Below, piece after piece: positions 8,432-53,259 of a stretch of 64,000 bases of DNA. A model generated the notes under the pieces. It saw nothing but the letters and a program-made list of their open reading frames with translations, was not told the origin of the DNA and made no database searches. Source of the DNA: Cyclobacteriaceae bacterium (GTDB taxonomy: Bacteria; Bacteroidota; Bacteroidia; Cytophagales; Cyclobacteriaceae). Positions within the stretch are counted from its first letter, which is position 1. Each line of letters begins with the position of its first letter. Made by a program: the position numbers and the translations under genes. The DNA lies in contig JANQSI010000004.1 of NCBI GenBank assembly GCA_028284125.1, positions 1-64,000 of the forward strand, given 5' to 3'.

Positions 8432-8535
8432 ACTTAAAGTTAACTAATTATTGGTCGTTCTATTTCGGGTCTTAGAGATCTCGATAATCAAAAAGTATAC
8501 AAACCCCTATGATCATCCAATAAGACAGACTTGGG

Positions 8536-9930
8536 CTATTTAATCGTCACGAGAAAAAACTTAGGATAGAAATTCACTACTTTTTCAATATCTCCTTTAA
8601 AGTTTTTCCGAAGTACCGTTTTGATCTCGATTTTCAGTTGATCACCTGAAGCAGCCCTTTTCGTGAGGCTTGAAACATTGCTGTTGGCTTTTCCTTTCAT
8701 TCTGCCTCTCAGTTGTCCTTTGCTGATCAATGTAATTTCACAATCCTGAACTCGATAGTTGGCATCATTCGGAAGCAACCGCTGGAACTCCGCATCAGGA
8801 TGAACACTTAGAGAAACAGAAGAAGTTGATTTTGGTATTCCAGTTGCGAGATCCATGGGTTTCCCATTTGCAAATGGCATCACTCGAGGCGCTGGGATTC
8901 TCCGAACAGGAAATGATTTTTTGCCGATATAGGCACCGGCGTTGTGAACATCAATTTCAACCTGTCTGGAAGTAGGCAAAACGGTGATCTTTCCAGGCTG
9001 ATTCCCATATTTAAAGGAAGCTCCATCGATCATAAACTTCGGTCGATAATCCGAACCTAAGATCGGAACCTGAATATTCAATTGATTGCCACAATTCAGG
9101 AAAAGTGAGTTGACAGCTTGAGAAGAAACCTCAATAAATGGCTGAATGATTTTATATGAATCTGAAGTAGTAATCTCTTGCTCTTTCCCGTAAAGCTCAA
9201 TGACCGCCTTGTAATTGAGATTTCTGGACTTTAAAGAAAGACTACCGGTATTTTCCTCAAAAACTCCGACTCCACTTTTGAGTTCAATTTCAGATTCATT
9301 CACGGAAACGTTTTTTACATACGATTTATCCAATCGTGCAGCCAGCACCACTTCAGAACGGAACATTCCCCCCTTGCCAATTTCACGACTTGTCGGAATA
9401 GCTGTCAGGAAAATGCTATCAGTCATCAGCCCGCAGCTTTCAAGTCGGGCGACTGCTGAATCGAGAGAGTTTTTTAGTTGATAGTTGTCAGTGGTTAGTT
9501 GAGTGATATTGTTTGTGTTTTTGATGATTACTTTTTGCATTCCGGCTGGCGGCAGCCATGGTCGTGAGTCGAGGAATGGAATAAGTTCCGCTTGAACGGT
9601 AGCCGTATTTTCTGAAGGAGATTGGATTGAGGAATACACCGACTGAATTCCATTTGTAGACAGGTAAATCAAAAAGGCATAGGAAATTAAGTTTCCGAAT
9701 GATTTAAGACTGCTTGATAGTTGATAATTGGAAAGTAGGAGGATGAATAACAGAGAAAGGATCATAACCACTATAGCACAAAATGCCATCATGCTTGAAT
9801 GAGTTCTAAGTGGCTCAATTAGCCAACTCAAAATAGAGTACAAGATGCAAGTAAAAAACCAAGTGGTTAGGCTAGCAAGCAATAAATTTCGGATAGACCT
9901 AATGTCAAAAGCGTCACGCGGTAGTTTCAT
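8536..9930 (-). CDS. Hypothetical membrane protein with periplasmic-type C-terminal region
   Basis: 464 aa; several hydrophobic N-terminal segments then a long soluble region; no family recognised. Confidence 0.6.
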   Translation of the reverse strand: MKLPRDAFDIRSIRNLLLASLTTWFFTCILYSILSWLIEPLRTHSSMMAFCAIVVMILSLLFILLLSNYQLSSSLKSFGNLISYAFLIYLSTNGIQSVYSSIQSPSENTATVQAELIPFLDSRPWLPPAGMQKVIIKNTNNITQLTTDNYQLKNSLDSAVARLESCGLMTDSIFLTAIPTSREIGKGGMFRSEVVLAARLDKSYVKNVSVNESEIELKSGVGVFEENTGSLSLKSRNLNYKAVIELYGKEQEITTSDSYKIIQPFIEVSSQAVNSLFLNCGNQLNIQVPILGSDYRPKFMIDGASFKYGNQPGKITVLPTSRQVEIDVHNAGAYIGKKSFPVRRIPAPRVMPFANGKPMDLATGIPKSTSSVSLSVHPDAEFQRLLPNDANYRVQDCEITLISKGQLRGRMKGKANSNVSSLTKRAASGDQLKIEIKTVLRKNFKGDIEKVVNFYPKFFLVTIK

Positions 9931-10093
9931 GGCAATGGTCGGTTAGTGCTTAATAAATTTAATCATTGCCGAAGATTAATTTGCTTTTACTTGTGCTCCA
10001 TATCCCTTTGGTTGTCTACATATTGTATGTTTCAATATCAACAAATGCTGTTTGCTTTCTGTTACATTTAACTCCCTGAATCTAGGGAAGAAC

Positions 10094-11194
10094 ATGAATA
10101 AGAAGGTGTATTTTGAAAATTTGGATGGTCTAAGGGCCATTGCTGCACTTTCGGTTGTCTTTCATCACATCTTCACCTATGCGAAAACTCCGAATACAGA
10201 ATTTCACCATACGCTTGAACTTATTCTAGGATTCAATGGCTATGGGGGATACTATGGGGTGTTGTTCTTTTTCATTTTAAGTGGGTTTCTGATTTCTTAC
10301 TTGCTCTTTCAAGAGCAGGAGTTTCATGGAAGTATTTCGTTGAAGTTGTTTTATGCAAGGCGAATCCTTCGAATTTGGCCGCTGTATTATGTCTCAATAA
10401 TTGTAGGATTTTATATCTATCCGTTGTTGGATTCAAGTCATGTGGAAAAGGCTGAATTTGTTTACTATGCCTTTTTTGTCTCTAATTTCGGGAATATTGC
10501 ATATGGAGGATCGAACCTTGGAATTCTGGTTCCCCAATGGACAGTAGCTGTAGAAGAGCAATTTTATCTTCTATGGCCATTGTTATTTATTATACGAAAC
10601 CCACAAATCCAATTGTGGTCTTTTGTTCTCATCTCTGGATTTTCCGAACTGTTCTATCTGGCTCAAACAAACACAGAAGTCTCTTCCTTCCACTTCCTTT
10701 CCAATATTCGATTTTTGTCATTCGGAGGCATTATTGCCTACGTGGCATACTTTAAAATTGATTGGGTTAATCAGTTACTTTCAAGGCTAGGTAAACAAAT
10801 TATACTGCTAGTATACGTAATTGGAATAGGTACTTTGTTCATGAGAGAAACATTAGTTGCTCTTCATCCTGGTCTAAAATATATGGTTGAGATTGCACCA
10901 TTTCTGTTTTTCGCATTCGTAATTATGGAACAGAATTATTCCAACAACTCTATGTTCAAATTAGGAAAGTTTAGATATCTGGATTGGCTCGGAAAGAGGA
11001 GTTACGGTATATATCTCCTACACATGATGGCCATCTACTTCACCGTTAAAGGTCTTGAATGGTTTGGTAGTGGTGATTTTGTGTTGACCATGTTCTTGAG
11101 CCTATTAATAACTGTAGCAGCCAGCCACCTTAGTTACCACTATTTTGAGTCTTTCTTTCTTCGATTGAAAAGGAGGTTCCATCCGAATTCCTAA
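10094..11194 (+). CDS. Acyltransferase 3 family membrane protein (OafA/YrhL-like)
   Basis: YFENLDGLRAIAALSVVFHHIF, FFILSGFLISYLL, ARRILRIWPLYY, WTVAVEEQFYLLWPL motifs; ATG at 10094 preferred. Confidence 0.93.
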   Translation: MNKKVYFENLDGLRAIAALSVVFHHIFTYAKTPNTEFHHTLELILGFNGYGGYYGVLFFFILSGFLISYLLFQEQEFHGSISLKLFYARRILRIWPLYYVSIIVGFYIYPLLDSSHVEKAEFVYYAFFVSNFGNIAYGGSNLGILVPQWTVAVEEQFYLLWPLLFIIRNPQIQLWSFVLISGFSELFYLAQTNTEVSSFHFLSNIRFLSFGGIIAYVAYFKIDWVNQLLSRLGKQIILLVYVIGIGTLFMRETLVALHPGLKYMVEIAPFLFFAFVIMEQNYSNNSMFKLGKFRYLDWLGKRSYGIYLLHMMAIYFTVKGLEWFGSGDFVLTMFLSLLITVAASHLSYHYFESFFLRLKRRFHPNS

Positions 11195-11649
11195 TTCCCA
11201 CCAAAAACCATATCCGTGCTGGTATAGCTGCCACCAAAATTTTCTGAAAGCTTAACTACTTGTTCCAGCGCATCTTTGAATTGATCAGTAGTCAATTCTT
11301 CAAGTGGATGGGTGAATACGGACCAAACAATTGAGTTGAAAAGGGCATACTTAGAATCTAATGCTCGATCGAAATTTGCCTCGAGCATGACTTTGAAATG
11401 TTCGTCTTTTAGTTCTTTTTGTTCAACGATCGGACTCATAATTCGCATCCGGTTGGCTCCAACATCAGTGATTATCATAACAGGCCTTTCTCGCATCATG
11501 AATTGCCAGTTTCCCATTTGACCCTGAACGTCTTCTATATCTTCATGCAGAATTTTCCACATTTTCACATTGGTCATTTTGTCATCAACATCCTGTGCCA
11601 ATAATGCGTTGAAGAATACGAAAAATAGGAACGCGAAGGAATATTTCAT
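11191..11649 (-). CDS. Hypothetical exported protein
   Basis: 152 aa with N-terminal signal peptide MKYSFAFLFFVFFNALLAQ; convergent with acyltransferase, 4-nt overlap. Confidence 0.6.
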   Translation of the reverse strand: MKYSFAFLFFVFFNALLAQDVDDKMTNVKMWKILHEDIEDVQGQMGNWQFMMRERPVMIITDVGANRMRIMSPIVEQKELKDEHFKVMLEANFDRALDSKYALFNSIVWSVFTHPLEELTTDQFKDALEQVVKLSENFGGSYTSTDMVFGGN

Positions 11650-11724
11650 AATTGACGTAGTAAGTCAAGGAAATTAGCGTAAACTTCTATTAGTACAAAT
11701 GGATTATTAGCTTTATAACGACAT

Positions 11725-12390
11725 ATGAGAACATTAAAGTACTTACCCCAGATTTTAATACTCATTCTTCTCATAAGCTGTCAAAGCACTAACGACAATT
11801 CGAATGAGGAAGGGCAGTGGTGGACAAAAGAAGAACGACAATTGATACTATCTGAGTTGGACAGAACTACAGAAGAATTGAAGACCGAGATAGAAAACCT
11901 ATCAGATGAGCAGTGGAATTTTCGAGGAGGAGATGGCTGGAACATTGGTGAAATTGTGGAGCATTTGGAAATGCAAAATCAGCTTCATTATAGAGAAATT
12001 TCGGTGATAGCTAACAGTCCGCAACACTTGGAATACAGAAAAATTACGGAAGGTGGAGATGATTACTTCATTAAGTATGCGACCGATACTATTAAGGGTC
12101 AGGCAGGTTGGTTTTTAACACCTAAAGGGAAGTTCAATTCTAAAAAGGCTGCAGAATCTGCTTTTTACCTGGCAAGAGGCAAGTTGCGTGAGTATGTGGA
12201 AACGACTCCTGCAGATTTAAGAAAACAATTCACGTTCAGGTCCCCGATGTATGAAAAGGATCTTTCGGAATTAACAATTAGTGATGTCCGTGATCTTCAT
12301 CAGTTATTGCTAACAGGAATCGCACACACAGACCGCCATATTGAACAGATCAGAAACATAAAAGCGCATGATGACTTCCCTAATGACTAG
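11725..12390 (+). CDS. DinB-like domain lipoprotein
   Basis: Lipobox-like ILILLISCQS; ERQLILSELDRTTEEL...WNIGEIVEHLEMQNQLHY...LLLTGIAHTDRHIEQIRNI resembles DinB_2. Confidence 0.75.
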   Translation: MRTLKYLPQILILILLISCQSTNDNSNEEGQWWTKEERQLILSELDRTTEELKTEIENLSDEQWNFRGGDGWNIGEIVEHLEMQNQLHYREISVIANSPQHLEYRKITEGGDDYFIKYATDTIKGQAGWFLTPKGKFNSKKAAESAFYLARGKLREYVETTPADLRKQFTFRSPMYEKDLSELTISDVRDLHQLLLTGIAHTDRHIEQIRNIKAHDDFPND

Positions 12391-12482
12391 ACCTAAGAGC
12401 GAGTCCTTGATCTAAAAAAAATGGAGTTTAAATGTAAGTTTTGGGATTGATTGAACACTAATTCAATGAAGCCTGAATTCTT

Positions 12483-13493
12483 ATGGTTAAAACTATTTCA
12501 TATCAAAAGTCAGTTCCATTTCTTGTACCAATTGTGATCATCATTCTGATGATTGCAATATCCAAAACAACTCTTTTCCATTCGAATTCCAGCGCATTGT
12601 CAAATGCGATTACCATCGATTTATTGCTTACCTCACCCATCGTTTATTTACTTCTAATTAGGAAGAAGGCAATTCCCAATATCACGGTCGTATCTGTTTT
12701 TGTTGTTGGACTGATAGTAGCCAGTTTTATTGTTCCGAAGGAAAACCATCATCTATTGGACCTTGCCCAAACTTGGGTTCTTCCTGTTGCAGAGTTTGCG
12801 GTAGTCGGATTTATTCTTTTGAAGGTTAAACAAACAATTCAATCATTTAGAAAAGAATCCACAGTATCTCCGGACTTTTACACAGCCCTTAAAAAAGCCT
12901 GTAAAGAGGTTTTACCTAAGAAAGTAGATGTGGTTTTAGCAATGGAAATTGCGGTTTTTTACTACAGTTTTTTTGCATGGAAAAAGAAAAAACTACAATC
13001 CAATGAGTTCAGCTATCATCGAGAAAACTCAATTATCGTTTTACTTGCCGTAATTCTGTTCGTTCTTTTAATTGAGACGTTTGTCGTGCACATTCTTGTT
13101 GAAAGTTGGAGCAGCACAGCCGCATGGATTTTAACATTATTGAGTTTATACACCGGACTGCAGATTTTTGCAGTGATGAAATCAATGAGTAGACGACCAA
13201 TTGTTATTAGTGAGGAAAGTCTTCTCTTGAAGTATGGCCTATGCGCTGAAACGGATATTCCCTACTCAGCAATTGAATCTGTTGAGCTAAGCGCGAAACC
13301 GATTGAATTTAACAAGAATACACGCCACATGTCACCTTTAAAGGACGCAGATAGCTACAACGTGATTCTGGCATTGAAGGAGAGACAAGCTATTTACGGC
13401 TTGTATGGAGTTAAAAGAAGCTTTGGCAAGCTAGCCTTTCACGTGGATGACAAGGAAAAATTCTATGATTTATTGGTATCTAAATTGTCATAA
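12483..13493 (+). CDS. Hypothetical multi-pass membrane protein with PH-like C-terminal region
   Basis: 336 aa, many hydrophobic segments; C-terminal PIVISEESLLLKYGLCAETDIPYSAIESVELS resembles bacterial PH-type domains. Confidence 0.55.
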   Translation: MVKTISYQKSVPFLVPIVIIILMIAISKTTLFHSNSSALSNAITIDLLLTSPIVYLLLIRKKAIPNITVVSVFVVGLIVASFIVPKENHHLLDLAQTWVLPVAEFAVVGFILLKVKQTIQSFRKESTVSPDFYTALKKACKEVLPKKVDVVLAMEIAVFYYSFFAWKKKKLQSNEFSYHRENSIIVLLAVILFVLLIETFVVHILVESWSSTAAWILTLLSLYTGLQIFAVMKSMSRRPIVISEESLLLKYGLCAETDIPYSAIESVELSAKPIEFNKNTRHMSPLKDADSYNVILALKERQAIYGLYGVKRSFGKLAFHVDDKEKFYDLLVSKLS

Positions 13494-13494
13494 T

Positions 13495-14121
13495 TCAGTT
13501 AGACAAGTCATTAATCTCATGAATCACCTCATCCAATTTTTTGACAGTTTCCTCAAGTAGTCTAAAAATTTTTTCGTTGTATTCCGTTTTGAAACTATCT
13601 GTTTTCAGCAGATCAACAAGTCCTATGATATTGGCTACAGGTGCTCTTAACTCATGCGAATTTTTATAGGAAATCTTTTTAATTGCTTCCACTTTCTCTC
13701 TAAGCTCCATTTCCATTTCTACAAGCTCAGTCACATCCTGAACGATTGATGAGAATTTAACTGGAGTCTGATCATCAGCTCGTTCAAATACAATGTCTCG
13801 AATAAAGAGATGCCGATAACTTCCGTTTGAATTTTTTATTCTAAGTGTACATTCAATGATTTCTCCTACACGACTTGTTCTTAATCTACTGATCACCTCC
13901 TCAGAAGTCTTGAGATCATCTGGGTGAATAATTGATTCAAAATAATTATGACTCAATTCTTTGAGTTTTTCCTTCGAGTAATCAAGAATTTTTTCCGCAT
14001 GACCACTTGAATAGATTAGCGTATCATCAACCAGATCGATGGCTCCAAAAGCCACTGGAGATGCTTTATGTAATGATCTTATGAAGGCAAAGTTGAGTCC
14101 CACGTTAACCAAGTTAAACAA
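13495..14121 (-). CDS. PAS-domain protein ending in a DHp-like (HisKA) segment, no ATPase domain
   Basis: PAS-fold sequence GEIIECTLRIKNSNGSYRHLFIRDIVFERADDQTPVKFSSIVQDVTEL then KISYKNSHELRAPVANIIGLVDLLKTD (H-box-like), ORF ends directly after; non-ATG start. Confidence 0.7.
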   Translation of the reverse strand: MFNLVNVGLNFAFIRSLHKASPVAFGAIDLVDDTLIYSSGHAEKILDYSKEKLKELSHNYFESIIHPDDLKTSEEVISRLRTSRVGEIIECTLRIKNSNGSYRHLFIRDIVFERADDQTPVKFSSIVQDVTELVEMEMELREKVEAIKKISYKNSHELRAPVANIIGLVDLLKTDSFKTEYNEKIFRLLEETVKKLDEVIHEINDLSN

Positions 14122-17746: not shown

Positions 17747-17754
17747 TCGTTGGA

Positions 17755-17846
17755 AGAAGCTGAAACAAGTTCAGCATGACGTTCCTTTTGTTAAAGTTGG
17801 TTTATGCTGCTCTATAGTCACTCTGAACTCGTTTCAGGGTCTTCGG
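17755..17846. repeat. REP-like nested inverted repeat (same family as 52.8-53.2 kb)
   Basis: GAAGCTGAAACAAGTTCAGCATGAC ... GTCACTCTGAACTCGTTTCAGGGTCTTC. Confidence 0.8.
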
Positions 17847-30626: not shown

Positions 30627-31964
30627 CTAAAACGATTGTAGAAAAATCAGTAGGATCAAAATAGGACAGACTACTTTCAAAAAGATCGGCCAGATCTTAT
30701 AAAAGAAGCTTGACTCAATTTCAGGAAAGCCTTCTTTTAGTTCAGAAAGTAGTTTGTCTTTTTTCAATACCCAACCCGCGAAAATAGCAATCGCCAAGCC
30801 CAGGAACGGCTGACTATATTCGGTTGTAGCCGTTACTACCAATCCAAATAGTGCCTCGAAATTGAAAACAATAATAAGACTAACGATCAAAAAGGAACCC
30901 CCCATGATCCATGTCGCTTTTGGTCGGCTGACATCTCGACTATCAACGACATAAGCCACGATTGGCTCCAGCATGGCAATGGAAGAAGTCAGTGCCGCTA
31001 TGCTCATCAAAAGGAAAAAGATAAATGCCACGACCCATCCAATAGATCCCATGGATGAAAATAAACCGGGTAATACCTGAAAAATGAGGTTTGGTCCGGA
31101 AATCAGATTTCCACTTGCGTCAAAGATTTCTGTTCCGAGATTAGCGGCAGCATACATGGCCGGAATGATCAACAAACCGGCAATAAAGGCAACACCAATA
31201 TCACATAGTGTGACCAACCATCCAAGCTTGACAAGGTTGGCTTTTTTGCTTGTATAAGATCCATAAACCAGCATTCCGCCTACGCCTAAGGAAAGCGAAA
31301 AGAAAGCTTGTCCCATGGCACTAGTGATCAGTTGTGGATCGAATATTTTATCAAAATCGGGTAAAAGATAGACTTTTAGTCCTTCCGAGGCTCCATCCAG
31401 TGTGAATACGTAGATCACCAGGAAAAAGAACAGCACGAATAAAGTAGGCATGAATCGGGTCGACCATTTCTCAATTCCTTTATTCACACCTCCGGAAACA
31501 ATGAGAATAGTCAATAGAAAAAATAGCGAAGTAAAAACAAGGTTACTGGATTCACTTTGAGAAACTAACCAATTGGAGAAGGCATCCATTTCTAGCAATC
31601 GTCCAATTGGCTCCAAGAAGAAGGCGATCATCGCACCGGCGATGATGGAATAAAAACTGAGAATGAAACCCACAGTCACTAATCCTAGAATCCCAATGCC
31701 AAAATATCCTTTTCCACCGCCCAGAGATTTGTACGCATCTGGTGGTGCCATTCGAGTGTATCGCCCGATGGTAAACTCAGCCATCAAAACCGGGTAGCCA
31801 ACAACAAAAGCAAGAATGAGATAGATTAGGACAAAAGCAGCTCCTCCATTTCCCGCGGTTTGTGTGGGGAATCCCCAAATATTTCCAAGCCCAACTGCTG
31901 AACCGGCAGCAGCCATTACAAACCCGAAAGAAGTAGTGAATTCACCACGAGAGGAGGACGCCAT
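30627..31964 (-). CDS. Sodium-dependent transporter, NSS (SNF) family
   Basis: FTTSFGFVMAAAGSAVGLGNIWGFPTQTAGNGGAAFVLIYL is the NSS TM1 signature. Confidence 0.95.
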   Translation of the reverse strand: MASSSRGEFTTSFGFVMAAAGSAVGLGNIWGFPTQTAGNGGAAFVLIYLILAFVVGYPVLMAEFTIGRYTRMAPPDAYKSLGGGKGYFGIGILGLVTVGFILSFYSIIAGAMIAFFLEPIGRLLEMDAFSNWLVSQSESSNLVFTSLFFLLTILIVSGGVNKGIEKWSTRFMPTLFVLFFFLVIYVFTLDGASEGLKVYLLPDFDKIFDPQLITSAMGQAFFSLSLGVGGMLVYGSYTSKKANLVKLGWLVTLCDIGVAFIAGLLIIPAMYAAANLGTEIFDASGNLISGPNLIFQVLPGLFSSMGSIGWVVAFIFFLLMSIAALTSSIAMLEPIVAYVVDSRDVSRPKATWIMGGSFLIVSLIIVFNFEALFGLVVTATTEYSQPFLGLAIAIFAGWVLKKDKLLSELKEGFPEIESSFFYKIWPIFLKVVCPILILLIFLQSF

Positions 31965-32140
31965 AAAATGTGTATTTGGTTAGGGGGCACAATTTGTGGA
32001 AATATGGCGAAGGGTGCAAGGTTAGAGTAGTGCCTTGTGGGGTCGCGTGTTATAAGCACGTGCTAATTGAGCTTCTTTTTAGTTGTAAAGGAATTTCTTT
32101 TTTCATTTGTCTAGAAGATAGCAGGGTTTCGAAATTTCGG

Positions 32141-32428
32141 TTATAGTTTTTCATTCAAATCTTGTCTTCCCACTATCGCAATTATCTCGACAATATTTTC
32201 ATTTATTTTATAATAAATACTATCAACTCCGCATACGCATCGCCTATAACCTTTTTTTATGTAATCCACCGACTCAAAGGAAAAAGGACGTTCTGCTATA
32301 ATGTCGAAATATTCAAAAAACGATTCGAAATATTTGTCCGCTTGGGTCATTCCAAATTTTTCAACTCCATAATGGTGAATCCGAATCAAGTCATTTTTTG
32401 CTTCGTTGGTTAACTTGTATTTAACCAT
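32141..32428 (-). CDS. parE: ParE-family toxin
   Basis: YKLTNEAKNDLIRIHHYGVEKFGMTQADKYFESFFEYFDIIAERPFSFESVDYIKKGYRRCVCGVDSIYYKINENIVEIIAIVGRQD. Confidence 0.9.
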   Translation of the reverse strand: MVKYKLTNEAKNDLIRIHHYGVEKFGMTQADKYFESFFEYFDIIAERPFSFESVDYIKKGYRRCVCGVDSIYYKINENIVEIIAIVGRQDLNEKL

Positions 32429-32660
32429 TTAGTAAAGACTTTGATTGAGCCAAAATACTTTCTTTACTATCATTAGTAAATCCACTATTTTCAGATTTTT
32501 CTAGTTTGGCTCGAATCCAGTCGATTTGAACTTGTTGTTTTCGGGCTTGTCTAATCAAGTCGTTGACCAACTCACTTTTGCTTGAGTATTCTTTACTATC
32601 CACTTGAGCTTTTAGCCACTCATCGTTGGGCTTTGTAAATGATATACTTTGTCTAGACAT
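32421..32660 (-). CDS. parD: ParD-like ribbon-helix-helix antitoxin
   Basis: SISFTKPNDEWLKAQVDSKEYSSKSELVNDLIRQARKQQVQIDWIRAKLEKSENSGFT; overlaps parE by 8 nt. Confidence 0.88.
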   Translation of the reverse strand: MSRQSISFTKPNDEWLKAQVDSKEYSSKSELVNDLIRQARKQQVQIDWIRAKLEKSENSGFTNDSKESILAQSKSLLNG

Positions 32661-32714
32661 AATTTTATATTTGGTGTAAAATTACATCAAAATCGAATCA
32701 CTTTCTAAATGATA

Positions 32715-32835
32715 CCAACGTCTAGATATGGCGCTGTTTCCTTCAAGCCCAATTAATTGCAATGAAAAGTTAGAGTACGAGCAACATGCGGTAGCTGGAG
32801 GTATAAGCGCTTGTAGCTGTTAGTAAGTCGTGTTA
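32715..32835. repeat. Dispersed cassette-type repeat, copy R1
   Basis: Contains CTAGATATGGCGCTGT (32722-32737, identical to 39596-39611) and ACGAGCAACATGC core shared with 38.2 and 38.8 kb copies; right end reaches the DUF1801 stop codon. Confidence 0.75.
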
Positions 32836-33270
32836 ACTTTTACATGCGGCACATTCATGGTGCTCATTTAGGTACGAAATTGTATCGATACACAGTTGTT
32901 CTAAAATTAGAGGGTCTATGTCGGTAAGTTTTTTGATATAAATACACGCTTTCCCCATTTTAAATTTCCCAAGATCTTTCAGCAGCGCATCACTCTTGTC
33001 AGTTTTTGAAAATACGTAGAGTGAAAATTGAGCTTTTCTAGGTGAGAAACCCAGTATGGGAGCATCTCCCTCATGTCCACTCGCGTATTTATAGTGATAG
33101 TTTCCGAAACCGATAATTGTAGGTCCCCACATTTTTGGTTCAAATCCAGACCACTTACTCAATAGTTCTACTAAACGAAAACTATCAGTTTTCTTTTGTT
33201 CGTTATCTACATAACTATTTATAAAGTCAAAAACATCTACTTCAGTTTCGGTAGTTTTATTCTTTGCCAT
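32833..33270 (-). CDS. DUF1801-domain protein
   Basis: LVELLSKWSGFEPKMWGPTIIGFGNYHYKYASGHEGDAPILGFSPRKAQFSLYVF. Confidence 0.88.
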   Translation of the reverse strand: MAKNKTTETEVDVFDFINSYVDNEQKKTDSFRLVELLSKWSGFEPKMWGPTIIGFGNYHYKYASGHEGDAPILGFSPRKAQFSLYVFSKTDKSDALLKDLGKFKMGKACIYIKKLTDIDPLILEQLCIDTISYLNEHHECAACKS

Positions 33271-33379
33271 TTGTTATTTGTCTACAGCTTTTGAGCAGTT
33301 ATACAAAGTTAATTTCTTTACGCTCAAATTAATTGTTGATGTCAATTTTGGCCTTAGTTGAAGCACCTAAGCGAATAGC

Positions 33380-34138
33380 ATGAAGTCAATCTTTTATTTC
33401 CTGTTTTTCTGTCCCACGATCCTCTTAGCTCAAATCAATGAAAGTGATACGCTGAAAGTGCAGGCAAGCCTCTCTTTAACAGGCTTTTGGCAAGAAGGCA
33501 ATGTTCAAACCTCAATTTTTAGAGGTAGAACAGACGTTAGTGTTAAGCCCTGGAAGAAATGGGTTTTCAAAACCCAAAACTCATATGTCTATCAGGCTTT
33601 TTCCAAGGACAAAGCCGATGAAGATATTCTGAGCTTGAACTTCCTCTATTTCAATCCGGAACGAAAATTTTACCCTCAGTTGCTGGGTTTTGTCAGTACT
33701 AATTTTCGCCGAGAAATAGATCTACGCTATTTGATAGGGGCGGGAGTGACCTACCAGGCCCTCAACAAAGAAAAAGATTGGCTCAAATTTTCACTTACCT
33801 TCGAATATGAAGACACGGACTTCTCAAGGGCCACCTTTAACCGTTCAGAGTTTAATGGAAACCAATCCATTACTACTATGCGCAGTACCCTTTGGATTAG
33901 CGGTAGATATCATTTGTTTGACAAAAAGTTGATTTTGAACCACGAGAGCTATTTTCAGCCTTCTCTGAAACGCAGTAGAAATTTTCGTTGGCTCGCTGAT
34001 ATCAGTCTTGAAGCTCCCGTTTGGAAGTTTTTAAGCTTCAAGGTGAACTTTCTTCAAACTTTTGAAAGTATCGTTATTGAAAACCAAAAACAGGAGGACA
34101 GATTTTTAACTTTTGGTCTGACGCTAAAGAATTTCTAA
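33380..34138 (+). CDS. DUF481-like outer membrane protein
   Basis: Signal peptide; LSLTGFWQEGNVQTSIFRGRTDVSVKPWKKWVFKTQNSYVYQ beta-barrel-like alternation. Confidence 0.65.
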   Translation: MKSIFYFLFFCPTILLAQINESDTLKVQASLSLTGFWQEGNVQTSIFRGRTDVSVKPWKKWVFKTQNSYVYQAFSKDKADEDILSLNFLYFNPERKFYPQLLGFVSTNFRREIDLRYLIGAGVTYQALNKEKDWLKFSLTFEYEDTDFSRATFNRSEFNGNQSITTMRSTLWISGRYHLFDKKLILNHESYFQPSLKRSRNFRWLADISLEAPVWKFLSFKVNFLQTFESIVIENQKQEDRFLTFGLTLKNF

Positions 34139-34208
34139 CACTTGGAATTCTGGCAAGTTCTTCGTTTTTGGTAGCTTTTGAGCCCGTGGATTAAACACTC
34201 TAACCGAC

Positions 34209-35504
34209 TTATCCTCTTGTTCTAAACTCAACCAGATACGGGAGTAATGCAACACCACTTCCAGTTCTGAAGTTACTCGTGATCCAAAATTTATAATGCT
34301 TATTTGATTCCAATTCTACTTTAAGTTTCCAAGACGTAGAATCAGCAGCCCATTCTCGATTTAAAACTTTTGGGAACGCATTTTCAGCTAAATCTGAATA
34401 GTCAACTCCTGTGTTGTAGCCGTTTAACTTTTCTGAAAAATGAATCGTGATCTCATCGATGTTTGGGTCAACATTCTGCGTGCCATTCTCAAATTCCTTT
34501 ATGCTTACAACATTTGGTCGATTCTTATGATCTTCAATTCTTAGTTCTTCAATCGTTTTTGAAAAATAGTTGGTATTATCAATGAAAGCGTCAATTTCAC
34601 TTGGATTGCCATAGTCCAATTCTATCATTTCCTTGATCGCCTGTTTCTTGTTAGAAGATTTATTGTAGTGATTTTCGGCGATGGCATATCCGACATAATA
34701 TCCTAAATCCCTTACTCCAAATTCGTTTGGTGAATTACTCCAAAGCCAATCTGGTATTCTTTCATAAAACATTTCCAATTCAAATTTCTTACGTACCTCA
34801 GAATTGTTTTTCCCAAATTCAATAGCCGGTGAATCTGACGGAACACCCATTGCAACTACTGATACAAATTCTGCAACACCTTCATAAAGAGCCATGTGTA
34901 GCAGATTATTGGGGATGTGGGTTTGTTGAGTATGAACATATTCGTGGACATTCAGGAGTACTAATCCATCGATTGGATCAGAGCTAAAAAATGTTTCCAA
35001 CCATTCCTTCGTCCGTCCTTCAAACTCTGAAATATCGGTCGTGTTGTCAGCCATTGCCAGCTCACTTCCAATGAGTACCGAACTATCGCGAGTTGTGCCA
35101 TTGGTTCGCATACCGCCGATGGTAAAGTAAATTTTTGCAGGCTTTAAATCCGGATAGAGTGCTTCCAATTTTTCAACTCCATCATTTAGTTCATTTGCCA
35201 ATGATTTTGATTTCAGCGTATTAGCACGAATCGACCCAAAGAATTTGGGGTATTTGTTAATCAGATATGCATACTCACTTGCTGTGTAGTCACGAACTTC
35301 TATCATTTTTTCTAACCCAATCGTACCCCTTTTGATATAAAGCGAGTCAATCAACTGGATTTGAGCTAAACTATCTGATTCTTCCCTTACCAATTCATAA
35401 GCCTCCCAGAAGTTATCAATGTCTTGAGTGACCACATTGCTTTGTCGGTTTTCCATGGTCTGACAGGAAATGGCAATTGCCAATGGAACTAGAAGTTTTT
35501 TCAT
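34209..35504 (-). CDS. Putative lipoprotein zinc peptidase with HExxH-like motif (DUF2268-like)
   Basis: MKKLLVPLAIAISCQTM lipobox-like start at 35504; LVLLNVHEYVHTQQTH motif. Confidence 0.6.
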   Translation of the reverse strand: MKKLLVPLAIAISCQTMENRQSNVVTQDIDNFWEAYELVREESDSLAQIQLIDSLYIKRGTIGLEKMIEVRDYTASEYAYLINKYPKFFGSIRANTLKSKSLANELNDGVEKLEALYPDLKPAKIYFTIGGMRTNGTTRDSSVLIGSELAMADNTTDISEFEGRTKEWLETFFSSDPIDGLVLLNVHEYVHTQQTHIPNNLLHMALYEGVAEFVSVVAMGVPSDSPAIEFGKNNSEVRKKFELEMFYERIPDWLWSNSPNEFGVRDLGYYVGYAIAENHYNKSSNKKQAIKEMIELDYGNPSEIDAFIDNTNYFSKTIEELRIEDHKNRPNVVSIKEFENGTQNVDPNIDEITIHFSEKLNGYNTGVDYSDLAENAFPKVLNREWAADSTSWKLKVELESNKHYKFWITSNFRTGSGVALLPYLVEFRTRG

Positions 35505-35512
35505 TTTACTTT

Positions 35513-36793
35513 TTAGTTTAACGCTTTCTTCCGTCCGATAAAATGAACCCATTGAATAAAGTTAAATTCAAGGTGATCGAACATCATTTTTTCGTTTTCA
35601 ATGGTCATATGCAGATTAGGATAGTAACGTAGGTTCGTTCTCAACAGGCTCGTTCCTGTTTTGGTGACTCGTATATCCCACCCGAAAGTGATGCCGAGTG
35701 CAAGTTTGTTTTCCTTGTAATCAGTCCCGTTTACGGTTGTATTTAGGTTTTCGTAAGATAGAATTGGCCCAACAAAAGGAACAAAACCCAGGTAGTTAAA
35801 AAGAAATTTAACCGATTCTACTCCCAGGGAATGTCTACGAATTTTTATTTCATTGTTATAACCTTCATACCTGTCTCCATACGTGCGATACGAAAGATTT
35901 ATGTTCGCATCGACTTTATCGAAGTACCTTCCAAAAGACAAGTCTGGCAAGATAGAGGCAGCGTAATCATCATAAAAGTAGGGGTAATTCTCTCTCAAAA
36001 AAGATGACTTACTCATTTGTAAAGCGGACGATGGACCAATTCCGTAAAACCATGTACTTAACAAGTTGCGATCTTTTAGCACACGATAATCCTCGTTGGT
36101 TCGCCGAACTGCCCTTTTTGTCCTCATATGTCGATCAGAGTCCACATATCTCAACAAACTCAAATTAAAAGAGACCGGGTTCAACTTAACATCAGCTATT
36201 TCAGTAGGACTGATGTAATAGTTGAACTCATTTTGATGATTGTAATAGCCAGATGCTGTGAGATGCCATTGGTCTGTGGTGTAGGTCAACCCAAACTGTA
36301 TGGGATGGATGAAACGACCAAAACTAGGTGCCCCATTGCTGCTCGTACTTTCTTCAGATTCCTGAGAAAAACGAATTCTTCTAAAACTGACACCTAAAAA
36401 TGGACTTACTTTTTTTGGTTGCAGTTTAATGGGATAAACTCGCATGCCTGTCTCTACGCCTTGATAGACATCTATTTCATCCAGTCCATTGGGGATATCT
36501 TGAATGGTCAAAAAGGATAAAGGAAACGTCACATAAAAATCAGTATGACCCCAAAAGTGAATTCCACCAATCGTGATTCTTGGCATCAATGTACTTCCAA
36601 AAGTTGTTGTTTGCTTGGTTCCGTTTATGAGTTGTTGGGTTGATCCACCGCTGAGGTAATTCAAATCTCCACCGTAGGTGAACCAGGCAAATCGAGTACT
36701 CTTATCCAGGTAGCTTTGAGTATATACACTATCCGCTTGCCCGCTTAGGCTTGCAGTATAGGTAAATAAGATGATTATAAATACAGTCCTCAT
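35513..36793 (-). CDS. Hypothetical outer-membrane protein
   Basis: 426 aa with signal peptide and beta-strand-like aromatic/polar alternation; adjacent to the HExxH lipoprotein. Confidence 0.55.
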   Translation of the reverse strand: MRTVFIIILFTYTASLSGQADSVYTQSYLDKSTRFAWFTYGGDLNYLSGGSTQQLINGTKQTTTFGSTLMPRITIGGIHFWGHTDFYVTFPLSFLTIQDIPNGLDEIDVYQGVETGMRVYPIKLQPKKVSPFLGVSFRRIRFSQESEESTSSNGAPSFGRFIHPIQFGLTYTTDQWHLTASGYYNHQNEFNYYISPTEIADVKLNPVSFNLSLLRYVDSDRHMRTKRAVRRTNEDYRVLKDRNLLSTWFYGIGPSSALQMSKSSFLRENYPYFYDDYAASILPDLSFGRYFDKVDANINLSYRTYGDRYEGYNNEIKIRRHSLGVESVKFLFNYLGFVPFVGPILSYENLNTTVNGTDYKENKLALGITFGWDIRVTKTGTSLLRTNLRYYPNLHMTIENEKMMFDHLEFNFIQWVHFIGRKKALN

Positions 36794-36929
36794 TTTGAAG
36801 CTGCTATTGGTAGGTAAAACTAGAAAGGTATTGCGTTTGTTTATGAATTGGATTTCTTGTGCCGGTTCTAACCATCAATGGGTTAATAATAATTCACGAG
36901 TCACAAACAAGTACGGTCGCATTTTAGTG

Positions 36930-38060
36930 TTAGTCATTTGAATATCCCAACTGCTCAAAGAGCTCTGGTGATTGCTTCAGATAACGTTCTTTATTAGTTT
37001 CTTGGAACCAGGCTTTTGATATTTTCTCATTGTTGTAAAGACGTCCATCTTTCCAATCTGGAATGCCTTGGATATAAAGCTTTTGCCAGTCTTCGTTTAT
37101 GAAACTAACTGCCTTGATATTCTTTTTGTAGATGAAGTTGAAAAAATTGACAAACCACTGATCCCAGACCTCACTATTTTCTTTGTCAATACCTTTGACT
37201 GGGTTCGATTCGGCGATCATTACCGGTTTCTTTTGTTCTTTGGCAAAATTCAAAACGTTATCACAATAAGGACCAAAGTCATCACCAGCATACGCATGGC
37301 CGAAGACAGAGATGCCTATCCAGTCCACGTAGTTATCACCGGGATACCAGGCAGACAACTCGTAATCCTTGAACGGTTTGGAAGCGTATGAATGCCAGAC
37401 AAAAGCAATGTTGCTTGCTCCTTCTTTTCGCAACATGTCGACGATACGCCGATACGCTTTTACGTACTCTTTGGGCTCTAGTTCATTATGTGGTCCGTCA
37501 AATTCATAGCCTATCCTGAGATATATCGGCCGGTTCGTAGCTTTTGCCCAAGCAGCATATTTCTTAATGACCTTATCATATTCACCTTTGCCTGCTTTCT
37601 TAGCAACATCCCATTTGCCGACCATCCACATAGCACTATGCAATACTGTATTGGGAAATTTATCAATTAGCATTTGATGATTTTGTGTGTCACCAGTATC
37701 AGTCCTATAGGCCTCTGTAATGCCTTTAAATTCTGGTATTCCCCAATAAGCTGACCAGCCACCCGGAATCTTTTGATCTGGAAATTTGTCAACATATTCT
37801 GAAATACGTTCAACCGTCTGACCCATGATAAGCAGGGTTTTTCCCGGGGCGGGAACAAATTTTGTCTGTTCGTAATCGTAAACAAATTCAGGATCAACCT
37901 CCGTATTGATTTGCGACACCATCTCTTCAATAGATCGTTCGATTGATTCAGAATCCTGCATTGTTTTTTCTTGTGACCAGACGAATGGTGATAAAGGAAA
38001 AATTAGAATAGTCGTCAAAAAAGTAACTCTGTATTGAACTGTGGTTTTCCAAATTCTCAT
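36930..38060 (-). CDS. GH26-like glycoside hydrolase (beta-mannanase type)
   Basis: NTVLHSAMWMVGKWDV, RPIYLRIGYEFDGPHNELEPKEYVKAYRRIVDMLRKEGASNIAFVWHSYA, YPGDNYVDWIGISVFG, KPVMIAESNP. Confidence 0.85.
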   Translation of the reverse strand: MRIWKTTVQYRVTFLTTILIFPLSPFVWSQEKTMQDSESIERSIEEMVSQINTEVDPEFVYDYEQTKFVPAPGKTLLIMGQTVERISEYVDKFPDQKIPGGWSAYWGIPEFKGITEAYRTDTGDTQNHQMLIDKFPNTVLHSAMWMVGKWDVAKKAGKGEYDKVIKKYAAWAKATNRPIYLRIGYEFDGPHNELEPKEYVKAYRRIVDMLRKEGASNIAFVWHSYASKPFKDYELSAWYPGDNYVDWIGISVFGHAYAGDDFGPYCDNVLNFAKEQKKPVMIAESNPVKGIDKENSEVWDQWFVNFFNFIYKKNIKAVSFINEDWQKLYIQGIPDWKDGRLYNNEKISKAWFQETNKERYLKQSPELFEQLGYSND

Positions 38061-38116
38061 GTATCAAGCAATTTCCTTTTGTTCTATAGTATGGTAAACA
38101 CGGTTTTGAAACTGGT

Positions 38117-38240
38117 ACCAATATCTTATAACAGGAAAGATCCTGCTTTGTTGTCTGAAAAATTCCCTAAAGCCGGTGCCAGCTTTTAGCTTGTAATTGT
38201 ATGATTAGCGCACGAGCAACATATTCGCACTAGCTGGGAG
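38117..38240. repeat. Dispersed cassette-type repeat, copy R5
   Basis: 26-bp TTGTATGATTAGCGCACGAGCAACAT at 38197-38222 identical to 38770-38795; flanking sequence also alignable with R6. Confidence 0.8.
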
Positions 38241-38278
38241 GAGCCTTTTTTATATTTTTCGCAATTTCAAAAGCTGTC

Positions 38279-38659
38279 TCATTTTTTGTCTTTTCTGATT
38301 AGTCCAAAAACCAAAACCGTTGCATAAGCCCACATCAGCCAAGAACCGAAAGTAGCTCCATCCGTTTCTGGAAGATTTGGAAATACCCAAGCAAAAAACT
38401 CAATGCAAAATGTATCGAAAATCATTCCTGGGAGAACCATAATTACTGCAGATTGAATTGACTCCAATTTCCCAAGTTTGTATTTGTTGAAAACCCAAGT
38501 AGCGACAAATCCTAAAAATGGAACTACAGCCAAATAGAGAGCTGTCAATATAACGGGATTGTCAGTCACAAAGAAATATTGACCTGCAACTCGAAATGCT
38601 ATTGTTGCCAAGAGCCAAATCGCAAATCCGATTATTAAACTGAAAATTCTGTAGTTCAT
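38279..38659 (-). CDS. DUF5367-like membrane protein
   Basis: 126 aa, four hydrophobic segments; ATIAFRVAGQYFFVTDNPVILTALYLAVVPFLGFVATWVF. Confidence 0.7.
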   Translation of the reverse strand: MNYRIFSLIIGFAIWLLATIAFRVAGQYFFVTDNPVILTALYLAVVPFLGFVATWVFNKYKLGKLESIQSAVIMVLPGMIFDTFCIEFFAWVFPNLPETDGATFGSWLMWAYATVLVFGLIRKDKK

Positions 38660-38689
38660 TATCTACTTTTTCGTTTCGTCATACTGCAC

Positions 38690-38805
38690 ACAACACCTTT
38701 GTATCATGAAAGATACTGTCTTATTGTCTTAAGAAATGCCAAAGGCTGGTGTGAGCTTCTGGCTCGTACTTGTATGATTAGCGCACGAGCAACATGCTCG
38801 TGCTA
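38690..38805. repeat. Dispersed cassette-type repeat, copy R6 (best preserved)
   Basis: Left boundary AACACCTTTGTATC; right hairpin GCACGAGCA-ACA-TGCTCGTGC (38783-38803); overlaps stop of the 38803 gene. Confidence 0.85.
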
Positions 38806-39234
38806 GCGGGTGCTTTGATTCCGAAGTTTCTCTATAAAGTTTAAAACCTTATCTGCAATTTCGATTGGACATCCCCAGTAATCAAATATTCCTCCTTTGT
38901 TAGAATTTTGTCCACAAACCACAAAAAGCCCAGAGCCTAATTCTTCCTTTGTTTTACTAGCCAGCCATCCAACAAAACCGCTATTGTCCAGGCCATCTTT
39001 GAAGTGAAAGCTAAATATTTTGAAATTTTCTGTTGATTCATCTTCGGCAGGAATCAAATAACTCCAAACTTCATTGTCTTTGATCATGGCAATAGCTTGT
39101 GGGTCAAAATGAAAATTGTCAACTCGAGTTTCTTTGAAAAAATATGAGTTATCCAAAACTTCATATTTGGCAGTTTTTAGAACTTTGATAAGTCTCTTTT
39201 CGATCTCTTCCTTGGTTTCGTTGCTTATATACAT
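38803..39234 (-). CDS. Small hypothetical protein (possibly DUF6196-like)
   Basis: ISNETKEEIEKRLIKVLKTAKYEVLDNSYFFKE...; ATG at 39234 avoids overlap with the upstream gene. Confidence 0.5.
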   Translation of the reverse strand: MYISNETKEEIEKRLIKVLKTAKYEVLDNSYFFKETRVDNFHFDPQAIAMIKDNEVWSYLIPAEDESTENFKIFSFHFKDGLDNSGFVGWLASKTKEELGSGLFVVCGQNSNKGGIFDYWGCPIEIADKVLNFIEKLRNQSTR

Positions 39235-39235
39235 T

Positions 39236-39553
39236 TTATATTTCCATGAAAATGTTTGTTCCAATTTCTTTTGAATCTTGAGTATCCATTTTGAAGTTTT
39301 CTTCGAGTTTTATTTTTCCTGAATCTTTTTCAATTAATAGAATACATTCAGATTCTCCGTGATCCAACTCTCCTGTTATTCTTTGTTGACAATAAGTAGA
39401 TTTTAGAACTGTGTCGTTCAATTGTCCAACCAGATATCCGAGTCTTATTCGACCACCAGAGTAATTTGCCATTACATTATTTTCATCCTGATTAAAATAG
39501 AAAATGGTTTCTTCGTTAAGTATTCCGTTCTTAGAGGTCTGGATGACGTTCAT
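39236..39553 (-). CDS. Small protein often annotated as N-acetylglutamate synthase-like
   Basis: NGILNEETIFYFNQDENNVMANYSGGRIRLGYLVGQLND; family recognised from memory only. Confidence 0.55.
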   Translation of the reverse strand: MNVIQTSKNGILNEETIFYFNQDENNVMANYSGGRIRLGYLVGQLNDTVLKSTYCQQRITGELDHGESECILLIEKDSGKIKLEENFKMDTQDSKEIGTNIFMEI

Positions 39554-39589
39554 TTTTTATTATTCAGCATATTTTAATCCTAATTGCCA

Positions 39590-39826
39590 TAACACCTAGA
39601 TATGGCGCTGTGGCCTCCGAGCTTAACTAATTGCGATAAAAGTAGCTTATCTGCCGGTGTTCACAAAGTATCAGACTGGCACTGCGCCATTCCAGATAAA
39701 AAACTCCCACGAACAGAAGGTAGTAGAAAGCACATCAGTTATTGGGGGTAGATAAGCTAGATTTTTTGCAGGCTCTTTGCAGAAGGGCTAAGGTAAGGCC
39801 ATGCGACCATATCGTATGTTAGCATC
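39590..39826. repeat. Dispersed cassette-type repeat, copy R7, with terminal inverted repeats
   Basis: TAACA(4)GATATGG at 39590-39605 and CCATATC(3)TGTTA at 39807-39821; internal TAGCTTATCT/AGATAAGCTA pair (39643-39652, 39750-39759). Confidence 0.75.
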
Positions 39827-39830
39827 AGTG

Positions 39831-41411
39831 CTAAAATAGTGTTTGGTTTATGAGGGCAACTGTAAATAATGACAATAAAAACCAGCCAATAGAACCTTGG
39901 ATCACAGTAACATATCGTGGAAAACCAGAGGTTGGAATTCGTCCAAATCCTAGGGTTACAAATGCATTTAGACTGAGAACAAGGGAGTTGAGGAGGTGAG
40001 CCACTACCAGAGATATACGTTGCTTTCTGGTTAATTTAGTGAAGCTTTTTCTAGTCCATTCCAGTGAGTCCCATTCATTTGGAAATAAGAAATAGATGAG
40101 ACCAAAAAGTAGAATAATGTAAATGGAAATGACAATCGCTTTAATAGGTTGCGTACCATGTTCAGTGTAAAATTTTAACAGCTGATTTAGTTTCCAAGTA
40201 AGAAAAGTAGTAAGGTTTGAATCTTGTTGATAGAGCGCTTTATATCTTCTTCCATAGACGTCTTTCATCTCGACATAGATTGCATTTGCATTTTCAATTT
40301 GTCCTTTCACCTTGTAGGTCTGATAAATGCGGTAATAGTCACCCATTAGCTTATCAAAAAACCATTTTGATAGAAGTTCTTTTTTCGTTTCTGCTTCATA
40401 AAACTCAGGCATGTAGGTTTCGCTTTCATCTGCAAAATTCATCTGCTCATAAAAGTCCTCTAGCTGTTCTTCCGGCAAGAATTCATAAGGCTCACCTTTT
40501 CCCCATGAATGTGACAATTTGTAGCCATCAATTTCTTCCCAGGGAATTGAAGAATTAAACTCAGGTAAAATGAAAGACCTAATGTCAAACTTGTGAAATT
40601 CGTTACCATACATATCCAAAAACTCACTTTTGCCATTTAGTGCAAAATACCCGTCCACTTTGTTGTTGGCGATTAAAATACCATTTGCATCCAAAACCCA
40701 GATGTGGACTATGTCAAACATATTTCCATTTAAGAATCTATTCCCATTGATCTCAAGTCCAAACGTCTCAATTTCTATGTAAACACTTTCTGTTGGTGAA
40801 GAGGTATGGAAAAGGTTCTCATGGGTTACTTCAATGATGGGCTTTGGGGTTGTAAACAAGTTGTTTTTGACATCTAACGAATTAGTCTTAGCAGCAATAT
40901 TTACCTCTTTATGAAACGTTGATCCCGAAATGCTGATCCATTCTTCCATCTTATCTTTTGATATCCTAAGGCTTTGAGCGGATACATCTTCTATCTGAGT
41001 GACTAACCCAGTGTTATTTGAGAATTTAAAATTTTCTACTTGAACGTTTCTAATTAGAACACCTTCTAGAAAATGGCAATTCTCAAATTGTAAGGAGGAG
41101 GGAAATTTCATTCCTTCGATAATCAAGGTTTCAGGAAAAGTGCAGTTGATAAACTTGAGGTTGAATGGGATTATAAATCGCGATGAATCATCCTTATTAT
41201 AAGTAAGGAATTTATGAACTGGTATGTGATCAAGTTCACCAATGCTTGGATCAATATAATGGCCTCTTATTCCATTTATCGTTTGATCCCGTATAACCTT
41301 TTGTGTTGTTGCTGAAGGTGTAAATGCATCAAGGATAGATCGCTGGGCTAAAATTGAAGAAGCACAATGAAAGATGATAATGTAAATAGTGATACGTTGC
41401 AGGCTTTTCAT
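39831..41411 (-). CDS. Exported pentapeptide/beta-helix-like protein with C-terminal membrane (channel-like) region
   Basis: Signal peptide at MKSLQRITIYIIIFHCASSILAQ (start 41411); repeated short FxNCxF/xLxIxxN motifs; C-terminal hydrophobic helices with SFNAFVTLGFGRIPTSG. Confidence 0.55.
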   Translation of the reverse strand: MKSLQRITIYIIIFHCASSILAQRSILDAFTPSATTQKVIRDQTINGIRGHYIDPSIGELDHIPVHKFLTYNKDDSSRFIIPFNLKFINCTFPETLIIEGMKFPSSLQFENCHFLEGVLIRNVQVENFKFSNNTGLVTQIEDVSAQSLRISKDKMEEWISISGSTFHKEVNIAAKTNSLDVKNNLFTTPKPIIEVTHENLFHTSSPTESVYIEIETFGLEINGNRFLNGNMFDIVHIWVLDANGILIANNKVDGYFALNGKSEFLDMYGNEFHKFDIRSFILPEFNSSIPWEEIDGYKLSHSWGKGEPYEFLPEEQLEDFYEQMNFADESETYMPEFYEAETKKELLSKWFFDKLMGDYYRIYQTYKVKGQIENANAIYVEMKDVYGRRYKALYQQDSNLTTFLTWKLNQLLKFYTEHGTQPIKAIVISIYIILLFGLIYFLFPNEWDSLEWTRKSFTKLTRKQRISLVVAHLLNSLVLSLNAFVTLGFGRIPTSGFPRYVTVIQGSIGWFLLSLFTVALINQTLF

Positions 41412-41427
41412 CTTATCAATATTGTTT

Positions 41428-41552
41428 GATGCTAACACCTTTATATCGGGAAAGATACTACGTTATTAGCGAAAAAAATTCCTAACAAACTCCCCTGGGA
41501 ATGATAAACGCACCTTTGGAGTGGCGGTTATTTCCGGAAGCAATTACCGATA
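41428..41552. repeat. Dispersed cassette-type repeat, copy R8
   Basis: AACACCTTTATATCGGGAAAGATACTACGTTATTAGC (41434-41470) matches R6 start at 29 of 37 positions by eye; TATCGG/CCGATA inverted pair. Confidence 0.65.
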
Positions 41553-41603
41553 ACCTGCCTTATAAACAGATATATAGTCATCCGTTTCAATAGATAAAAT
41601 TGC

Positions 41604-42581
41604 TTATATCCCCTGCAAAGATCTTTGATATTCCCTTGGGCTGGAAGAAGTCTCTTTTTTGAAGGCGGCATAGAAAGCAGAAGGAGTATTAAAGCCCACT
41701 TCGTAAGCAATTCCTTCCACTTTGGTGTAAGTGTTTTGCTCAATTTCCAGCCGACGTTTTACTTCTTCAATTCGAAGCGAATTCACCACTTCTGGGAAGT
41801 TTCGATTGTAGTGTTTTTTCACTGCCTTGGAAACGCGATAGACAGGCTCATCCAGGTGTTGTGCAAACTGAGTGAGGTTCAAAGCAGTACGCTGATACAT
41901 TTGTTCCTCTTCCAGGCATTTGACCACCCGATCAATGAGATCGGGCTGAATATCGTAAGACAATTTTTTCTGAAAGACTGCAGGATTTTTAAGCATCCGG
42001 AAAATCAATACATAAGTAGCAAGTGCCGCCACTGCTGCACCATACGCATAGTTTAGGATCGTGTCAGAAATCAACTGATAGGCAAGTGCTCCCCATATGA
42101 TTGTAAGACTAGCTAATAGCCATTGATTCCAATTCTTGTGTGGTCCATTTCCTGAAAAAGAAAAATACCAACAGGTGATCAAATAGATCAAGAAGACCGC
42201 AGTTCCAATCATGTATGCGAGATAGGGAGCAACTAAACCAAAGATGATTCCGATGAATCCAACCAGGGGAATAATTCCATGAAAAATATCTGATTTTTTA
42301 AATCCCTCTCTAGATTCATTTGATAGCCCTTCATAAATCCAGAGAAGTGGTCCAATGCTTGACAACCCTAAGAAACCAATAGAGGTTCCAAACAAAGACA
42401 TATCCGGGAATAGATAATAGAAGATCGATTTTCCAACCCTAAGAGCGATGGCTAAGAAAAGAAAACCAAGTGTCCGTTGGATCAACTTTGAGTTGTTGAC
42501 GAAAAAGAAATAGCCAGCCACAAAAACACACGCTGCAACAGCGATTCCGGAAAAAAGCGCGAGTAGGATAAAAGTTTCCAT
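41604..42581 (-). CDS. AraC-family regulator with multi-pass membrane N-terminus
   Basis: C-terminal HTH: EEVKRRLEIEQNTYTKVEGIAYEVGFNTPSAFYAAFKKETSSSPREYQRSL; hydrophobic N-terminal half. Confidence 0.93.
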   Translation of the reverse strand: METFILLALFSGIAVAACVFVAGYFFFVNNSKLIQRTLGFLFLAIALRVGKSIFYYLFPDMSLFGTSIGFLGLSSIGPLLWIYEGLSNESREGFKKSDIFHGIIPLVGFIGIIFGLVAPYLAYMIGTAVFLIYLITCWYFSFSGNGPHKNWNQWLLASLTIIWGALAYQLISDTILNYAYGAAVAALATYVLIFRMLKNPAVFQKKLSYDIQPDLIDRVVKCLEEEQMYQRTALNLTQFAQHLDEPVYRVSKAVKKHYNRNFPEVVNSLRIEEVKRRLEIEQNTYTKVEGIAYEVGFNTPSAFYAAFKKETSSSPREYQRSLQGI

Positions 42582-52807: not shown

Positions 52808-53207
52808 TGTAACTCTAAATTTATTTCAGAGTCTTCCACTTTATTTGTGAAATCAGAATAGAGTTTGCATGAAGATGCTGAACCAAGTTCAGCATGACAT
52901 TAGAGCATGACATTAGGTGATTGATTCATATCACAATGAAGTTCCCGAGAACTTGTTTCAGGTCTTCCATTTTATCTGTGCAGTCAGAATGGGTTTAGCA
53001 CGAAGATGTTGAAACAAGTTCAGCATGACACTAGGTGATCAATCATACACAATGCCGTCACCCTGAACTTGTTTCAGGGTTTTCCATTTTTATTTGTGAA
53101 ATCAGAATGGGGCTTGTATGAAGATGCTGAAACGAGTTCAGCATGACACTAGGTGATGATCAATCATACACGGTGTAAGTCACCCTGAACTTGTTTCAGG
53201 GTCTTCC
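52808..53207. repeat. Imperfect ~120-bp tandem array of nested hairpins (REP/RU-like), about 3.5 units
   Basis: Alternating ...CCCTGAACTTGTTTCAGGGTCTTCC... and ...AAGATGCTGAAACRAGTTCAGCATGAC... arms; GTCTTCC-type landmarks at about 52831, 52962, 53079, 53201. Confidence 0.9.
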
Positions 53208-53259
53208 TGAGCTATTAAATGTTTGGGATGGTGATATTCACTTGCGTTCAAACAAAAAA

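Follow-up and report, generated by a model that had tools for sequence, protein, structure and literature searches.

A duplicated REPIN-like and leader-like repeat module on both sides of a DUF5367 gene in a Cyclobacteriaceae accessory island

Introduction

In the Cyclobacteriaceae genome considered here, a gene encoding a DUF5367 protein stands between two direct repeats of one element, an arrangement first noticed in a preliminary description of the 64,000-nucleotide stretch of DNA analysed as a whole (the window) and upheld by the coordinates of the two copies. What are these repeats, and do they, as that description proposed, allow the gene to be excised or duplicated by recombination? The locus poses a second question, since the same group of genes also contains a site that resembles integron attC.

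Extent and composition of the repeat pair

Ungapped extension delimits two copies of 112 nt in direct orientation, copy A at 38126-38237 and copy B at 38699-38810, which are 78% identical at a spacing of 573; with copy A as a whole-genome query, copy B is the sole second full copy (E 4e-19; n = 2 full copies in the genome), which bears out the duplicated element of about 115 bp announced earlier. The 26-mer TTGTATGATTAGCGCACGAGCAACAT is present, exactly as reported, at 38197-38222 and 38770-38795; it is the longest identical run between the copies and has no third match in the window with up to three mismatches allowed (expectation from shuffles, 0). The gene had been placed exactly between the repeats; it does lie between them, but gaps of about 30 nt (start codon to copy B) and about 40 nt (stop codon to copy A) remain.

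Partial matches elsewhere in the genome split each copy into a REPIN-like doublet of about 71 bp and a module of about 52 bp, here called L, and both parts also occur separately elsewhere, beside unrelated genes; these and the other genome-wide counts rest on sequence searches of genomes. Between A and B the hairpin part (71 nt) is 79% identical and the remaining 51 nt 71%; the two L modules, 71% alike, are each closer to the copy on contig C23. A and B are old, diverged copies of a composite intergenic module that unites a putatively mobile hairpin element with a short leader-like sequence. That chance similarity or convergence of hairpins accounts for the pair is barely conceivable: the hairpins of this genome do resemble one another, but the likeness extends over 112 nt at the above E value and includes a shared spacer and a shared junction between REPIN and L. 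Searches of the window against Rfam, and of A and B against phage and plasmid records, returned no match, and no tRNA target was found. Elsewhere in the same genome (locus L044, contig C19), other genes are bracketed in the manner of A and B by a longer direct repeat, at 5060-5256 and 8640-8844, that terminates in L modules.

Table 1. Coordinates of the features discussed (positions in the window unless a locus is named)
Feature	Position	Strand	Score or remark
DUF5367 gene, 126 aa	38279..38659	-	PF17329, E 2e-23
Glycoside hydrolase family 26-like (GH26) gene	36930..38060	-	PF02156, E 2e-7; downstream of copy A
DUF6196 gene	38803..39264	-	PF19696, E 3e-52; ends inside copy B edge
Accessory island	31965..41603	.	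absent in congener G003
L module, copy A	38117..38167	-	44.5 bits; upstream of GH26 gene
L module, copy B	38689..38740	-	50.3 bits; ~30 nt upstream of DUF5367 start codon
Third island L module, without REPIN	41431..41482	-	58.4 bits; upstream of 39831-41412 gene
REPIN-like doublet, copy A, degenerate	38168..38238	-	70.8 bits
REPIN-like doublet, copy B	38741..38811	-	79.7 bits, E 2e-17 (covariance model; copy B is one of its training sequences)
Copy B hairpin, GCTAGC tag	38783-38807	-	inverted relative to the next
Copy B hairpin, GCTGG tag	38745-38769	+	inverted relative to the previous
attC-like cassette site (C-site), ~235 bp (237 bp)	39587..39823	-	231 bits (HMM of full-length copies including this one)
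C-site 3' end (model 182-235)	32714..32767	-	abuts REP-like remnant ~32768-32799; beside ParDE-like toxin-antitoxin pair
Recombinase, locus L062	928-2070		
Recombinase, locus L183	1219-2361		
Recombinase, locus L178	1027-2295		
Recombinase, locus L179	541-1674		
Recombinase, locus L190	2410-3582		

The REPIN-like doublet and its candidate transposase

The doublet consists of two inverted hairpins with a GCTRG tag at the outer foot of each, so that the tags lie outside, and folding of the aligned family gives a single nested hairpin of 19 bp. DNA folding of a 126-nt region of copy B gives z scores of -3.3/-4.0, and the best copy of the family, in congener G001 (locus L040, 4280-4365), forms one long hairpin (z -4.1); the hairpin of copy A folds no better than shuffles and is structurally decayed. 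The covariance model finds further, weaker copies outside its training set in the window's genome and in congeners G001 and G003. Copy number is low, at about six places in the window's genome; the clearest of the further copies are three in a row within 1.9 kb on contig C8 (locus L042, 6908-8835), around two other genes. The doublets of A and B are sisters, sharing 79% identity and the spacer, compared with 62-73% between them and four REPINs at other loci. Through GC-TAG-C at its edge, copy B contributes the stop codon with which the DUF6196 ORF ends.

Judged from its sequence, the anatomy of the doublet is that of REP/REPIN elements: short palindromic hairpins are scattered through intergenic DNA (copy A in degenerate form), paired REPs are inverted with their tags outside, and a cognate RAYT gene is flanked by the same REPs. 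This gene, on contig C21, encodes the sole Y1 transposase of the genome, a REP_Tyr_transpos protein (NF047646, above the NCBIfam cut-off), and on either side of it stand hairpins tagged like those of the doublets. Congener G001 has a related RAYT (45% identical), some 1.2 kb away from its nearest REPINs. The foot of the hairpins is GCTAG/GCTGG, where canonical REPs have GT[AG]G. For RAYT subclass 2.6, found mainly in Bacteroidetes, atypical REPs lacking GT[AG]G have been described (PMC6006769). Because of the GCTRG foot tag we call the element REPIN-like.

A second short-repeat family, with GTTCAGCATGAC / CCTGAACTTGTTTCAGG, occurs in the window at 52831-53209 and 17751-17844 as tandem clusters and inverted pairs.

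The L module as a putative promoter or leader

In gene orientation the consensus of the L module is GGAATTTTTTAGCTAATAACGCAGTATCTTTCCCGATATAAAGGTGTTAT. The genome of the window has seven strong copies, on contigs C2 (38117, 38689, 41431), C19 (30930, 33204, 36792) and C23 (88804); none rises above noise in nine congeners, and a search for the exact core pattern in a collection of about 85,000 species found it in no other genome. All seven copies end some 18-56 nt before a same-strand start codon, and the genes that follow are unrelated; two copies lie in divergent intergenic regions, one of these two beside a recQ-like gene. The -7 box of Bacteroidota promoters has the form TAnnTTTG, and the conserved core TATCTTTC resembles it. 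Because every copy precedes a start codon and the core is similar to the -7 box, L looks like a putative promoter or 5' leader module. No empty site was found for REPIN alone or for L alone; each part is presumed mobile.

The accessory island and the mobility of the DUF5367 gene

The DUF5367 gene is accessory, being present in 3 of the 98 genomes searched and in none of nine congeners. It forms part of a species-specific 9.6-kb segment of the window that also contains, among others, genes for a ParDE-like toxin-antitoxin pair, DUF1801, DUF481, GH26 and DUF6196; this segment is an island because its flanking genes are adjacent in congener G003, where a sodium-symporter gene (orthologue of 30627-31964, 90.6% identical) adjoins an AraC-type gene (orthologue of 41604-42581, 75% identical) at a distance of about 90 bp. 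Congener G004 has a different gene again beyond the AraC-type gene. The locus may be an insertion hotspot, given that the island is absent in G003 and the gene beyond the AraC-type gene differs in G004.

The direct orientation of A and B, their identical 26-bp block and the accessory nature of the gene they enclose are what an excision or duplication unit would offer to homologous recombination, which could then delete or amplify DUF5367. As the explanation of the pair this is nevertheless improbable, since the search turned up no site where DUF5367 alone is missing and one repeat remains, the single-repeat empty site by which related genomes were expected to betray excision; the sole empty site, in G003, lacks the whole 9.6-kb island and both repeats with it. 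Overall identity is 78% and the hairpin of copy A is decayed, and in genomes G010 and G019 the DUF5367 homologue stands among different genes, its flanks, as far as they were read, being free of such repeats. With a longest identity of 26 bp and a decayed copy A, frequent excision by homologous recombination between the copies is unlikely; past, rare recombination between them is possible. Of the earlier proposal, the bracketing of the gene by direct repeats holds, and the gene is accessory. The repeats could in principle excise it, but this is unsupported, as is their role in its mobility. The idea that DUF5367 constantly accompanies the A/B repeats was rejected on the strength of G010 and G019.

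An attC-like site within the island

Between two genes of the island lies the C-site (Table 1). In aligned C-sites the sequence from AAC to GTT is conserved and that outside variable, and an imperfect inverted repeat (GATATGG-CGC / GCGCCATATC) lies inside; inverted AAC..GTT ends, a variable outer flank and such an inner repeat are the traits of attC, and the terminal inverted-repeat test on the copy at 39587-39823 gives p 0.003. Of 297 family genomes, 45 have relatives at E <= 0.001, many of them matching at 76-86% along almost the full length and often several to a contig; they also occur in named genomes, e.g. Marinoscillum sp. MHG1-6 and Eudoraea adriatica. Loci L155, L168, L147, L148 and L158 carry copies as well.

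The position of the C-site also agrees with that of attC in cassette arrays, namely between stop and start codons on the same strand: 34 of 37 near-full-length copies lie behind a same-strand ORF (median 8 bp), and in 32 of 34 the next ORF is on the same strand too, the ORFs ending about 8 bp before the site and beginning about 20 nt after it. A 4-kb Marinoscillum contig has five C-sites alternating with short ORFs. No copy was matched on plasmids. No usable fold came out of RNAalifold run on a plain MAFFT alignment of C-sites, which is what one would expect of long palindromes whose ends vary.

Might A and B then be attC-type sites too, a second family whose 5' half has been replaced by the REPIN, with DUF5367 as an integron-style cassette between them? 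Each does stand between the stop codon of one gene and the start codon of the next on the same strand, and the island they occupy has a C-site; the end of L (..GATAT-6 nt-GTT) recalls that of the C-site (..CATAT-6 nt-GTT), with variable sequence beyond, and at 32714-32799 a truncated C-site has a REP-like remnant directly against it. We think it unlikely all the same: the terminal inverted repeat is absent from every L copy, including those without REPIN (0 of 7 at p<0.05, against 6 of 9 C-site controls), and the two L copies in divergent regions do not stand behind a same-strand stop codon. L modules were rejected as attC sites for lack of the R''/L'' to L'/R' inverted repeat. Given the remnant and truncated site at 32714-32799, a hybrid origin of A and B is possible.

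Recombinase-led cassette arrays

None of 20 C-positive genomes has an IntI (TIGR02249 above the curated cut-off). In four genomes, including one from the genus of the window, the array stands directly behind a PF00589 recombinase of about 380 aa (loci L062, L178, L179 and L183), with a divergent zinc-ribbon-like ORF on the other side of the recombinase; the spacer between recombinase and first cassette has a palindrome followed by GTT in the three that were fully read, which is attI-like. For the relatives of the recombinase, the match is listed in two parts, around positions 180-238 of the model. Genome G024 has a long same-strand array headed by a related recombinase (locus L190, contig C6); the gaps of this array at 8397-14100 are for the most part textbook attC-like palindromes, about 80-200 bp long and of several kinds, e.g. 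CGCTAAC..GTTAGCG. In the window's genome, a 97%-complete assembly, neither an integron integrase nor such a recombinase was found.

One tentative reading, possible but on balance doubtful, makes the DUF5367 island an integrase-less (CALIN-like) remnant of an undescribed Bacteroidota integron lineage, with attC-like sites of about 235 bp, a non-IntI tyrosine recombinase of its own (about 380 aa) and a zinc-ribbon-like gene next to the recombinase; DUF5367 would have entered as a cassette, and REPIN and leader repeats would later have overwritten the sites adjoining it.

Origin and significance of the repeat pair

The explanation that we favour, with good though not full confidence, is that A and B are a duplicated REPIN-plus-leader module which came to flank DUF5367 through duplication inside the accessory island. 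The doublet would be a non-autonomous element mobilised by the RAYT of the same genome and settled close behind stop codons, and L a promoter or 5' leader module spread or duplicated within the lineage. The gene itself would have come with the island, or through an old recombination event in the module; active cycles of excision by the repeats would have played no part. Most likely, the pair is an ordinary consequence of such a duplicated module in the island.

As a case, the repeat pair is modest: a REPIN-like element, of a Bacteroidota type that has received little study, joined to a start-proximal repeat specific to this lineage. The integron-like C-site and the recombinase are the stronger and more interesting lead. 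Together with the recombinase-led arrays, the C-site looks like an integron system in Bacteroidota. If this is true, gene-cassette capture in the phylum is undercounted, because integrase and site length both fall outside the usual search models; those for attC limit the length of the site. Complete integrons are reported to be very rare in Bacteroidota (PMC9024848).

Comparison with known systems

With genes excised by RecA-type deletion or duplication, DUF5367 shares its place between direct repeats; here, however, the repeats are old and diverged, and neither an excision product nor a single-repeat site is known. The C-site at 39587-39823 has in common with integron attC sites and CALINs (attC clusters without integrase) its AAC/GTT ends, inner inverted repeat and ORF spacing. 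It differs in its length of about 235 bp, usual attC sites being shorter, in the absence of IntI, and in that four arrays start after a non-IntI recombinase, while A and B lack the inverted repeat. The doublets differ from REPIN/BIME elements (REP doublets mobilised by RAYT, TnpA-REP) in their GCTRG tag as against GT[AG]G, in low copy number and in their fusion to a second repeat, L, but they have the same tagged short hairpins in inverted pairs with the tags outside, the same extragenic location, and a single RAYT gene in the genome that is itself flanked by like hairpins.
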